Assembly (NCBI GenBank): GCA_025363815.1
Contig: JANYLB010000032.1
Coordinates: forward strand, 62,001 to 126,000
Direction: 5' to 3'
Source of the DNA: Actinomycetes bacterium
Lineage (GTDB): Bacteria > Actinomycetota > Acidimicrobiia > IMCC26256 > JANYLB01
DNA: 64,000 bases
The translations under genes were made by a program, and so were the position numbers. The first letter of the stretch is position 1, and each line of letters begins with the position of its first letter. The notes below the pieces were generated by a model. It did no database searches, was not told the origin of the DNA, and saw nothing but the letters and a program-made list of their open reading frames with translations. This document shows positions 4,028 through 24,764 of this stretch, piece after piece.

Positions 4028-5260
4028 ATGAGAGCACTCGTCTTCGGTGTCGCGCCCGAACCCCAGCCCGAGCCCGAGTCCGACAACCCATTGCTGCGCG
4101 GCCTCGCGCACGCGCCCATGCGGCTCGAGCGGGACCACGCCGACCCGGGATTCCTCCGGCCCGACTGGGTCGTGACCCGCCCGCGCCTCGTCGGGATCTG
4201 CGGCTCCGACTCGAAGCAGGTCTTCATGGATTGGGGCGATGTCGGGTCGCCCGACAACCCCTTGAAGGCGTTCTTCTCCCTTCCGCAGGTGCTCGGGCAC
4301 GAGGTGGTCGCCGATGTGGTCGCCCTCGGACCCGAAGCCGAAGGGCTCGAGATCGGCGACAGGGTGGTTCTGAACCCGTGGCTGTCATGCGGCCCTCGCG
4401 GCGTGAGCCCGATCTGCGAGGCATGTGAGGTCGGCGACTACTCGCTGTGCTGGAACTTCGGCGTCGGTCCGATCGCGCCCGGCATCCACATCGGCACGTC
4501 CAAGGATGCATCCGGCGGCTACGCCGATCTCATGCCCGCGCACGACTCGATGCTCTACAAGGTTCCCGACTCCATCCCCGACGAGCTAGCGGTGTTCGCC
4601 GACCCGTTCGCGGTGTCACTCCACGCGATCACGCGTCACCCACCAACGCCCGGCGGCAAGGCGATGGTCTACGGCGCCGGCGCGCTCGGAACCTGCGCCA
4701 CCGCGATCCTGCGCGCGCTGTACCCCGATGTCGAGGTGCTCGTCGTCGCCCGCTTCGAGGCCCAGGCCGCGATGGCCCGATCACTGGGCGCGACAGTGAT
4801 CGGCCACGAGCCTGCGATTCGTGTGATCGAAGAAGCCGCGGCCTGGTCGGGGGGCCGGCTGGTCGCGAGCGACGGCCTACCGATGGCCTACCCCGGCGCG
4901 ATCGATGTCGTCTATGACACGGTGAGCAAGAAGGAGACGTTCGAGATCGGCTCGCGGGTGCTGAAGGCTAGGGGCACCCTGGTGAAGGCCGGCGTGCACG
5001 GTCCGACCCAGTGGGAAGACACTCCCCTGTACTTCAAGGAGCTCGCGATGGTCGGCTCCAACGCGTTCGGAATCGAGGAGGTCGACGGCGTGCGCCGTCA
5101 CGGCATAGAGCACTATCTCGACTTCGTCGGCTCCGGCCGGATCGACCTCACCGGCATGCTCACCCACACCTTCGACCTCGACAACTGGCGCGACGCCTTC
5201 ACCGCCATCGCCACCCAGGACACATCAGGAGCGATCAAGACGGCCTTCGACTTCCGCTGA
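4028..5260 (+). CDS. Zinc-dependent medium-chain alcohol dehydrogenase
   Basis: This 410-residue MDR-superfamily protein carries the catalytic-zinc segment G-I-C-G-S-D (about residue 58), a G-H-E-V-V segment, and a four-Cys structural-zinc lobe near residues 120-142. A Rossmann motif G-A-G-A-L-G-T lies near residue 220. It should oxidise an alcohol, or reduce an aldehyde or ketone, with NAD(P). The start is supported by GAGGGA five bases upstream. The last codons and stop lie in a 15-bp tandem duplication. It is preceded by a palindromic site and followed by a hairpin shared with the convergent hydrolase. The substrate is unknown; the setting among lipid-catabolic genes suggests a long-chain or alicyclic alcohol. 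Confidence 0.88.
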   Translation: MRALVFGVAPEPQPEPESDNPLLRGLAHAPMRLERDHADPGFLRPDWVVTRPRLVGICGSDSKQVFMDWGDVGSPDNPLKAFFSLPQVLGHEVVADVVALGPEAEGLEIGDRVVLNPWLSCGPRGVSPICEACEVGDYSLCWNFGVGPIAPGIHIGTSKDASGGYADLMPAHDSMLYKVPDSIPDELAVFADPFAVSLHAITRHPPTPGGKAMVYGAGALGTCATAILRALYPDVEVLVVARFEAQAAMARSLGATVIGHEPAIRVIEEAAAWSGGRLVASDGLPMAYPGAIDVVYDTVSKKETFEIGSRVLKARGTLVKAGVHGPTQWEDTPLYFKELAMVGSNAFGIEEVDGVRRHGIEHYLDFVGSGRIDLTGMLTHTFDLDNWRDAFTAIATQDTSGAIKTAFDFR

Positions 5261-22461: not shown

Positions 22462-23187
22462 ATGGAAGGTGCTTTGGGCCGGCGACTCCCCCGTGGAGTC
22501 GCCCAGATGTTGGTGGTTTTGGCCGTGGCGACCGCGGGTTTGTTCGTCGCCGCGCTCCCAGCCCGCGCCGAGCAGCTGCGAACGACCGTCTCCGGCTACG
22601 GAGTTCGGGTTCGCGTCTACAACCAGATGTGCGACAACGGGTTCCAACACACCCGCCTCAACGTGAACAACCTCTCGAGTCAGCCGGTCACGATCGACGT
22701 CACCGATCCCGAGGCCCGCAGCATCGAGTACGGGCCGTCTGGGTTTATCCCGGCGGGAACTGCCAAGTCGGTGAGCATCACCGCCAACCCGAACGCCCCG
22801 GCTCGAAACGCGACCGTCACCGTCAATCCCGGCGGCCCGCTCGCGATACCGATCCCGTACAAGCAGTGCGTCGAGGTCGTACCGACAACCGTCGTCTCGA
22901 TTCCTCCTTCACCGCACGACCCGGGCACCACCCCGATCGCGCAGGTCCTCCCCGGGGTCACTGCCAGGGCCACCCCGGCCGTCACGACGGTGGTGGAGGC
23001 GGCCACGCTGCCGTTCACCGGTGCCGATGTCCGTTTCATCTCCGCGTTGGCCGGCTTGTTCGTTGTCCTCGGTGGCTTCTTCATGTTGCTTCAGTTCCGC
23101 AACGACTCGTACAACACGTTGCTTCTCGGAGAAGTACTGACCCACCGTGGTCTCTTCGTGCCCGCTGGGGGCAGCGAAGAGGCGTGA
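22462..23187 (+). CDS. Secreted LPFTG surface protein
   Basis: ATG 22462 lies behind GGGGAGGA and gives 241 residues. A signal peptide is evident (hydrophobic residues 14-33, A-R-A cleavage near 36). The mature part has a beta-rich domain with C-x30-type spacing to a second Cys, then a Pro/Thr linker, L-P-F-T-G-A-D at 183-189, and a hydrophobic helix (about 190-213). Sortase substrates end with a few basic residues after the helix. Here 29 more residues follow, so it may be a membrane protein whose LPFTG is used unusually, or not a sortase substrate. No sortase gene is in the window. Confidence 0.75.
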   Translation: MEGALGRRLPRGVAQMLVVLAVATAGLFVAALPARAEQLRTTVSGYGVRVRVYNQMCDNGFQHTRLNVNNLSSQPVTIDVTDPEARSIEYGPSGFIPAGTAKSVSITANPNAPARNATVTVNPGGPLAIPIPYKQCVEVVPTTVVSIPPSPHDPGTTPIAQVLPGVTARATPAVTTVVEAATLPFTGADVRFISALAGLFVVLGGFFMLLQFRNDSYNTLLLGEVLTHRGLFVPAGGSEEA

Positions 23188-23215: not shown

Positions 23216-23374
23216 ATGACCGGCTACAGCGTTTTCGCGATCATCGCAGTAATCCTTGTCGTCTTGATCTTCTCGGCGATATTGCGCGCCCGGCGGAACC
23301 TACGCGAGGTCGAGCGTGAGGTACGTCGGTGGGGTCGCGATGCCGAAGATCCATCTCCGCCGCCCAAGAGTTGA
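23216..23374 (+). CDS. Small membrane protein with charged tail
   Basis: A 52-residue product starting at ATG 23216, 28 bases after the surface protein gene. A single helix (residues 6-24, Ile/Val-rich) is followed by R-A-R-R-N-L-R-E-V-E-R-E-V-R-R-W, an amphipathic charged helix, and a Pro-rich end. No family is recognised. The position between two envelope genes on the same strand suggests one transcription unit with them. Confidence 0.6.
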   Translation: MTGYSVFAIIAVILVVLIFSAILRARRNLREVEREVRRWGRDAEDPSPPPKS

Positions 23375-23414: not shown

Positions 23415-24764
23415 ATGACATCAGTCCCGTTCGAACCACTCGCCGGTCGATACGAGCTTCGCCAACGCCTCGCCGCGTCTTCGGCGGCGGAGGTCTTCCT
23501 CGCCCACGATCGCGACCTCGATCGAGCGGTAGCGATCAAGGTCCTTTCCGCCGATCTCGCCGCGGACCCTCAGGTAGTAGATCGGTTCCGCCGAGCTGCG
23601 ACCTCGACGGCAACGATACGCGACCCCCACGTCGTGACGGTCTACGACTGGGGCGAGGTCGGCGGCACTGTGTTCGTCGCGATGGAGTACGTCGACGGAA
23701 CGAGCCTCGCGGCCACGCTCACCGAGGCCCGACGACTCACCCCCGATCGAGCGGCCGACATCGGTGCGGACGTCGCCCTGGGCCTCGCCGCGGCCGAGCA
23801 GTCCGGCGTCGTACACGGCGGACTCACCCCGAGCGACATCCTGCTCGGTCGCAATGGCGACGTGAAGATAGTTGACTTCGGCACCGCCGCCGCGGGTCTC
23901 ACCGGGTTCGCGGGCGCGGGCGCCGGCGTCACCGCGGCCCGGTACGCCGCGCCGGAGCAGCTGCAGGGAAGCGCGGCGGATGCGCGCAGCGATCTCTACG
24001 CGCTGGGATCGATCCTCTACGAAGCGGTCAGCGGGACACCGCCATTCGACGCGGCCGATGTCGTCACCATCACCGAGCGCAAGCTCCGTGAACGGCCATC
24101 GCCCCTCTCCACCCGTACCACTGGCATTCCCCCTGCGCTCGACGCGATCATCGAGCGGTTGCTCGAGACCGAGCCCTCGCGGCGCTATTCAACCGGTGCC
24201 GATGTGGCCGCCGACCTGCACCGCCTCTCCGCGACGCTCGTAGTCCCCGTCGCCGGGGCCACCGCTCCCGTCGCCGTGACTACCGCTCCCACCACGGCGA
24301 CGAACATCCGCCCGGCGGAGGCAGCGGAACCGAGAAGTCGCACAAGACCGCTCTGGATCGTCGGCGCGCTCGTGATCCTCGGGCTCGTCGTGGCCGGCCT
24401 CGTGGCGTGGGCGGTCTCTAGCGACAACAACGCAAAGAACGCCCGGGTCGACGTGCCCGCCGTCGTCGGCCAACGCGTCGGAGCGGCCACAGCCGCCGTC
24501 ACCGCGGCCGGCTTGAGCCCGACGACGGTGAACGAACCCAACGATCAGTTCGCCGCCAACCTGGTGTTCGGGCAGACCCCCCCTGCGGGTACCAATGCGG
24601 CCAAAGGCTCCGTCGTGGTCCTCCATGTGAGCACCGGTGCGACGACCACCACGTCCACATCGACCACCACGTCCACGTCGACCTCGACCTCGACCTCCAC
24701 CTCAACCAGCACCTCGACCAGCACGACCACAACGACCGCGCCTCCGACGACCTCCACGAGCTGA
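23415..24764 (+). CDS. PASTA-domain transmembrane pseudokinase (PknB-like)
   Basis: With ATG 23415 the protein has 449 residues. Residues 10-270 have the Ser/Thr kinase fold: V-A-I-K (Lys42), D-F-G (154-156), Y-A-A-P-E (178-181) and later D-L-Y-A-L-G. However, the Gly-rich loop is A-A-S-S-A-A-E, the helix-C Glu is Ala (R-F-R-R-A-A), and the catalytic loop reads H-G-G-L-T-P-S-D-I-L instead of H-R-D-L-K-P-x-N-I-L. The catalytic Asp and its partners are therefore missing. A transmembrane helix (about 311-335), one PASTA domain (343-405) and a Thr/Ser tail follow. It probably senses wall fragments and signals by binding rather than phosphorylation. Confidence 0.85.
   Translation: MTSVPFEPLAGRYELRQRLAASSAAEVFLAHDRDLDRAVAIKVLSADLAADPQVVDRFRRAATSTATIRDPHVVTVYDWGEVGGTVFVAMEYVDGTSLAATLTEARRLTPDRAADIGADVALGLAAAEQSGVVHGGLTPSDILLGRNGDVKIVDFGTAAAGLTGFAGAGAGVTAARYAAPEQLQGSAADARSDLYALGSILYEAVSGTPPFDAADVVTITERKLRERPSPLSTRTTGIPPALDAIIERLLETEPSRRYSTGADVAADLHRLSATLVVPVAGATAPVAVTTAPTTATNIRPAEAAEPRSRTRPLWIVGALVILGLVVAGLVAWAVSSDNNAKNARVDVPAVVGQRVGAATAAVTAAGLSPTTVNEPNDQFAANLVFGQTPPAGTNAAKGSVVVLHVSTGATTTTSTSTTTSTSTSTSTSTSTSTSTSTTTTTAPPTTSTS
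24641..24740 (+). repeat. Thr/Ser-coding low-complexity repeat
   Basis: Short ACC, TCG and ACG units repeat through about 100 bases and encode the C-terminal Thr/Ser tail of the pseudokinase. A similar tract lies at 53300-53430 in the NlpC/P60 gene. It is coding low complexity, not a CRISPR or regulatory repeat. Confidence 0.8.

Follow-up and report, generated by a model that had tools for sequence, protein, structure and literature searches.

PASTA-type Ser/Thr kinases such as PknB and StkP consist of a kinase domain, a single membrane helix and a PASTA part, in that order, and an intact HRD Asp and activation-loop Thr are expected of them. These proteins have been studied as enzymes, and the non-catalytic roles of their wall-sensing part and of their kinase fold are hard to separate. 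N-lobe dimerisation activates both PknB and PknD, according to extracts of PMC3601408. A pseudokinase is defined in extracts of a review as a protein that has the protein-kinase fold and lacks at least one of the VAIK Lys, the HRD Asp and the DFG Asp (PMC12599244). In the same extracts the actinobacterial ActPs3 family is described as carrying VALT, lacking DFG and having its activation loop deleted, and the pseudokinase domain of MviN is said to keep the equivalents of the dimer residues and, once phosphorylated by PknB, to recruit FhaA (PMC12599244). PASTA appears in this review solely in its reference list (PMC12599244), and extracts of another paper raise no more than the possibility that CD2148, a kinase of C. 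difficile, is a pseudokinase (PMC9674922). Among the titles and abstract openings of the open-licence literature we found no PASTA pseudokinase, a scope by which priority is not established.

Here we describe a candidate for this missing combination. The window, by which we mean the whole stretch of 64,000 nucleotides that was analysed, corresponds to C2:62001-126000 of a 2.68-Mb genome in 62 contigs that is 89% complete. Judged by its sequence and those of its relatives, one protein encoded in it is a real, conserved PASTA pseudokinase receptor of single origin.

Domain layout and kinase motifs

The gene and its parts are as follows, with family counts given in PknB numbering where a PknB residue is named.

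23415..24764, + strand: whole coding sequence of the PASTA pseudokinase receptor, ATG start at 23415, 449 aa
23439..24239, + strand: pseudokinase domain, about residues 9-275, by Pfam Pkinase, Foldseek and a model with pLDDT mostly >90
23472..23495, + strand: degenerate glycine-rich loop, AASSAAEV, residues 20-27; both loop glycines (Gly20 and Gly21) are gone in 7/8 members with an N-lobe
23538..23540, + strand: retained VAIK lysine, Lys42, equivalent to PknB Lys40; present in 7/8
23595..23597, + strand: helix-C Glu replaced by Ala, residue 61, equivalent to PknB Glu59; Glu gone in 8/8
23814..23837, + strand: HGGLTPSD where HRDxKPxN is expected, residues 134-141, without the catalytic Asp; Arg137 is Gly in 9/9 and Asp138 is gone in 9/9
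23874..23882, + strand: retained DFG, residues 154-156; the DFG Asp (Asp156) is present in 6/9
24351..24407, + strand: transmembrane segment, residues 313-331, by hydropathy; model helix 314-341
24447..24635, + strand: single PASTA domain, residues 345-407, by Pfam; PASTA matched in 8/8 members scanned
24645..24761, + strand: Thr/Ser-rich C-terminal tail; the last 40 residues are 93% Thr or Ser

The start position is shared with the aligned orthologues, whose start codons were chosen by us. Pfam matches Pkinase at residues 17-260 (E 7.6e-33) and PASTA with an E of 1.1e-11, and along the protein a kinase domain of PknB type is followed by the transmembrane helix, the one PASTA domain and the Thr/Ser tail. 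This is the kinase, single helix and PASTA layout of PknB and StkP; the PASTA domain would accordingly be placed outside the membrane and the pseudokinase domain, by analogy with PknB, on the cytoplasmic side. The Thr/Ser content of the tail ranges from 62 to 93% across 8 members of the family.

Mtb PknB is the best sequence match (38% identity) and supplies the top Foldseek matches, with a target TM of about 0.84-0.93; the PknB L33D and D76A mutant structures are among the Foldseek matches, by their titles. An AlphaFold model made with 49 sequences (mean pLDDT 84.8, vs 37.6 for a single-sequence prediction) shows both lobes of the domain in full, then a long helix and a unit that resembles PASTA, and since active relatives stand in its alignment it speaks for compatibility with the fold and not for a measured active-site state. 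The NCBIfam NF033483 score is 317.9 bits, under the curated cut-off of 450.

In the window copy VAIK, DFG and APE are intact, and substitutions affect the glycine loop, the helix-C Glu, the Arg and Asp of HRD and the Lys and Asn after it. An earlier note on this DNA, made from the sequence, had named the kept motifs together with changes in the glycine-rich loop, the helix-C Glu and the catalytic loop (HGGLTPSD), and every one of these was read correctly; the transmembrane helix and single PASTA domain that it described are likewise found by hydropathy and Pfam. The loss goes further than that note listed, with the HRD Arg gone too and the equivalents of PknB Thr171 and Thr179 also lost, so that the intact HRD Asp and activation-loop Thr of PknB and StkP are absent here. 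The P+1 Thr (Thr179) is lost in every member that has a letter at that column. Lys140 is lost in 8/9 members and Asn143 in 6/9, the change of this Asn to Asp in the window copy being a mild one, with Asn present in 3/9 relatives.

The other kinases aligned from the order and class, 37 canonical PASTA kinases and 36 further ones, all have an intact HRD (73/73), and against this background the motif loss goes well beyond chance. The change of Arg to Gly is uniform across the family, which points to one event. In the canonical set of 37 PASTA kinases, identity reaches 92% or more at 97 columns (Mtb PknB numbering), of which 39 are retained in at least 7/9 pseudokinases and 58 are not. An invariant acidic residue able to replace the catalytic Asp was sought in the loop and none was found. 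With the fold kept (Pfam, model and Foldseek), the HRD Asp replaced by Gly and this Asp gone in 9/9 members, the protein falls within the published definition of a pseudokinase, and phosphotransfer is presumably absent from the domain. The window copy itself, in which the VAIK Lys and DFG Asp are retained, may bind ATP and have some activity.

Distribution, descent and selection

Of the 58 genomes searched in the order, 10, from three families, have a single-PASTA relative with H-G-[GSAP] for HRD: the only genome of f1, 6/7 in f11 and 3/4 in f16. It was not found in G044 (f11, 68% complete) or G036 (f16, 72% complete). The initial search covered 61 genomes (the window's own and 60 relatives) and gave the H-G-x change in 5 of 30 loci kept; profile A1, built from those 5, scored 708-816 bits for family members in the 58 genomes of the order, vs at most 379 for canonical kinases. 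The copies in G026, G015, G034, G029 and G032 (truncated) were first found by queries without their sequences, while in the search with alignment A2 most places recovered were the alignment's own rows. No further relative above the canonical score range was found in the class (395 genomes) or the phylum (396), where the best 4 candidates per genome were scored, a procedure that could miss strongly degraded copies. Among named genomes the change occurs in one of 80 loci only, on a contig identical to that of G022, by a scan whose patterns were set around DFG and APE and which favours copies retaining both. That contig, CAMBEL010000070.1 (L067), is titled as a Bifidobacterium breve MAG and is identical in every letter to a part of the G022 contig; G022 falls in the window's order by genome search, and the title is probably a mislabel.

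The earlier note had pointed to orthologues with the H-G-G change as a check on its reading, and all 10 members found among the 58 genomes carry H-G-x. Decay confined to this locus was rejected, the altered form being present in 10/58 genomes of the order and orthologues mostly keeping HRD not being seen among them.

The kinase motifs beyond HRD differ among members. The window copy and those of G041, G010, G022 and G038 have lost HRD and retained VAIK and DFG; G034 has lost HRD and the VAIK Lys and retained DFG; and G026, G015 and G032 have lost HRD and DFG and retained VAIK, G032, which is cut by a contig end, having the same sequence as G015 at the DFG place. In G029 DFG is lost and the N-lobe is wholly absent, the Pfam Pkinase match starting at profile position 80, and a search for an N-lobe remnant upstream of this stub in all frames of the contig found none (best E 0.41). 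Across the family DFG is thus lost in 4/10, the VAIK Lys in one and the entire N-lobe in one, and the sequences compared show a pseudokinase family that is still losing kinase parts across lineages. Pfam Pkinase and PASTA are nevertheless matched in 8/8 members scanned, with the membrane helix and tail also kept in 8/8, and the nine complete copies are open frames without stops. The portion common to all full-length members is the C-lobe, linker, helix and PASTA.

In a tree calculated without the motif columns, the 8 pseudokinases with a full-length N-lobe form one clade vs 70 other rows (99/96), and this clade is present in 98% of 200 bootstrap trees. For that tree the gene of G034, which has a long branch, was trimmed to its first 270 residues, replacing L203, and L184, L187, L189 and L190 (long branches), L200 (the same sequence as L015), G029 (no N-lobe) and G032 (cut) were omitted. 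Support for a single group was weak (55) in an earlier quick tree that included the motif columns and, as a very long row, L203, the gene of G034. In the tree of canonical PknB, f1, f3, f11 and f16 lie close together, a comparison that fits vertical descent of the pseudokinase as far as gene trees can indicate.

The estimate of selection comes from one pair, G022 and G038, the G015-G032 pair being too close (dS 0.013). Between G022 and G038 the pseudokinase domain has dN/dS 0.12 at dS 0.55 (Nei-Gojobori), which shows purifying selection on the domain in this pair, and the whole gene has dN/dS 0.217. The active PknB of the same two genomes gives 0.076 and 0.151 for the matching domain and whole gene. 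Over the transmembrane and PASTA part of the pseudokinase, dN/dS is 0.92 on a dS of only 0.08, changes too few to read. We also observed that dS in these two genes (L159/L160) is uneven, 0.55 over the kinase domain vs 0.08 over the transmembrane and PASTA part, with a milder trend of dS along the gene in the active PknB pair; recombination or selection on synonymous sites are possible causes.

Gene neighbourhood

Two genes lie directly before the pseudokinase in the window.

22462..23187, + strand: LPFTG protein, directly upstream neighbour; status as a partner not supported
23216..23374, + strand: 52-aa single-helix small membrane protein, between the LPFTG gene and the pseudokinase; a neighbour only

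The row of three genes that the earlier note described is there, on one strand with gaps of 28 and 40 bases. That note called the first product an LPFTG surface protein; the motif is there, and the surface or sortase label is uncertain, as the hydrophobic stretch behind the motif runs on into some 30 polar residues. We take a polar tail of that length to be unusual for a sortase substrate, and by its sequence the LPFTG protein may not be one. The 52-aa protein has a weak resemblance to CcmD (21.6 bits vs a curated cut-off of 25.6). More widely, in 12977-34025 the pseudokinase lies amid ORFs that we read as acyl-CoA dehydrogenase-, CoA transferase- and enoyl-CoA hydratase-like, together with a P450, and not amid wall genes.

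The earlier note suggested that the LPFTG and small membrane proteins could be functional partners of the receptor, and that conservation of the neighbours be checked. Seven window genes around the pseudokinase gave zero matches (E <= 0.01) in 8 relative loci, and the idea of a conserved operon was rejected for these loci, two of which, G041 and G026, lack the upstream flank. In G022 the pseudokinase has a flavin monooxygenase as neighbour and in G041 a sulfatase. For the small protein, 12 related genomes were searched and none gave a match below E 0.001. The LPFTG protein is matched weakly in 2/57 other genomes, only one of which, G041, the nearest relative, also bears the pseudokinase. There the match (40% over 81 residues) covers bases 4133-4372 of a 4377-base contig and is cut by its end, while the pseudokinase begins at base 131 of a different contig, in the first 130 bases of which the small protein was sought and not seen. 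The two genes may therefore adjoin each other in G041, and apart from this one fragment the proposed partners are not conserved. That the three window genes make up a functional unit is suggested by their close spacing on one strand and by the contig-end positions in G041; with neither partner matched in the 8 relative loci, we regard such a unit as very improbable. What stands of the earlier proposal is the pseudokinase receptor, with H-G-x in 10/10 members, and what mostly falls is the partnership.

Candidate functions and comparison with known systems

The reading that we favour, and hold to be somewhat better than an even case, is that of a PASTA receptor family of single origin in which catalysis is gone and the kinase domain is kept for a non-catalytic job on the PknB pathway. 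Outside the membrane, the PASTA domain and Thr/Ser tail would place or gate the protein by cell-wall state, as PASTA biology suggests, and binding of wall fragments by the putative receptor is plausible. Inside, the kinase-derived domain would serve as a binding module on the active PknB pathway, be it co-receptor, scaffold or decoy; most likely, we infer, it is a co-receptor or scaffold for an active PASTA kinase. In 9/10 pseudokinase-bearing genomes there is a PknB of active type whose open frame spans 625-667 aa. The host genome has four other kinase genes above the Pfam cut-off, all with HRD, and one further weak match below it. Two more of its genes contain PASTA domains, on contig C45, where its own PknB is encoded, and on C22. 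Conserved gene neighbourhood gives no pointer to the PknB pathway as partner because no neighbour is conserved.

In members with an intact N-lobe, contact could be made through the conserved back-to-back N-lobe face, with the equivalents of PknB Arg10, Leu33 and Asp76 kept in 8/8, 7/8 and 7/8. These residues are also found in 34, 35 and 36 of 36 other kinases aligned, so their retention is weak evidence for such a contact. An N-lobe dimer as the function of the whole family was ruled out by G029, which has no N-lobe, and by G034, which has lost the equivalents of Leu33 and Asp76. A more specific and more tentative version of the non-catalytic reading takes its model from HER3, a dead co-receptor: the wall-sensing pseudokinase would pair with an active PASTA kinase and switch it without catalysis, and the lineage would have pared it down step by step, from a domain almost whole to the C-lobe stub of G029. 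We think this possible and would not bet on it; if true, a non-catalytic function of a PASTA receptor could be read from what evolution left.

Catalysis might instead be residual or repurposed, with ATP bound through the Lys and DFG Asp and phosphate or AMP moved by another residue. The window copy and four close relatives do retain both residues, and SelO, in extracts of the review, has H-G-x for HRD yet AMPylates (PMC12599244). However, the Lys is gone in G034, DFG in G026, G015 and G029 and the N-lobe in G029, the glycine loop and helix-C Glu are gone too, and the loop holds no invariant acidic residue to stand in for the catalytic Asp, all of which makes this explanation improbable for the family. 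A functionless, decaying gene would account for the continuing loss of kinase parts and for long branches such as that of G034; it is hardly credible given nine complete copies that are all open, a dN/dS of 0.12 for the kinase domain in a single pair, and a spread over three families and 10/58 genomes, the 8/8 copies checked having an intact helix, PASTA and tail.

The remaining alternative is a stand-alone scaffold like MviN, in which PknB would phosphorylate the linker, an FHA protein would be recruited and wall synthesis restrained, PknB itself not being directly affected. The C-lobe, linker, helix and PASTA shared by all full-length members suit it, as do the MviN-FhaA precedent and the two FHA genes that lie about 5 kb from the active-type PknB gene of the host genome, with one more elsewhere. 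The linker phosphosites are candidates only, motif matches in Thr-rich linkers carry little weight, and MviN differs in architecture, so we consider this scaffold a doubtful though serious possibility. Phosphothreonine-FHA motifs in the linker, inspected by eye, were dropped as uninformative in Thr-rich sequence.

Among described families, the MviN (MurJ) pseudokinase domain of Mycobacterium, from ActPs3, resembles the window protein in being actinobacterial, membrane-bound and wall-linked and in keeping N-lobe dimer residues. MviN itself passes the membrane several times, transports wall lipid, and has a sugar-binding domain and no PASTA. ActPs3 is marked by loss of the VAIK Lys and DFG and deletion of the activation loop, whereas the window copy keeps VAIK and DFG. 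The AMPylase SelO, as far as extracts describe it, shares an H-G-x loop for HRD and differs in architecture, without PASTA; the Asp-Asn pair at the end of its loop, which has a role in SelO, is not conserved in the PASTA pseudokinases. EssB/YukC of type VII secretion is similar, in extracts of the review, as a membrane-anchored pseudokinase acting as a scaffold (PMC12599244), but it has all three motifs degraded, belongs to a secretion system and is without PASTA. The motif sets described there for ActPs1, ActPs2, GLW, DYD and DLHK do not match a copy with VAIK and DFG kept and HRD lost, and the variable CP1 pseudokinases were compared by two table entries alone (PMC12599244).

The closest likeness is to PknB (Mtb; NF033483), which shares the order of kinase, helix and PASTA, is the best match in sequence and structure and has the VAIK and DFG kept here. 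Unlike PknB, the window protein is without the catalytic Asp, HRD Arg, helix-C Glu, glycine loop and activation-loop and P+1 Thr, and it has one PASTA domain where PknB has several, with a score under the NF033483 cut-off. A family in nature whose catalysis was lost once, and whose kinase parts then went in steps while helix and PASTA stayed, would make the separation of enzymatic from non-catalytic roles in PASTA kinases testable, and with it the few bacterial pseudokinase families on record would gain a wall-receptor architecture.
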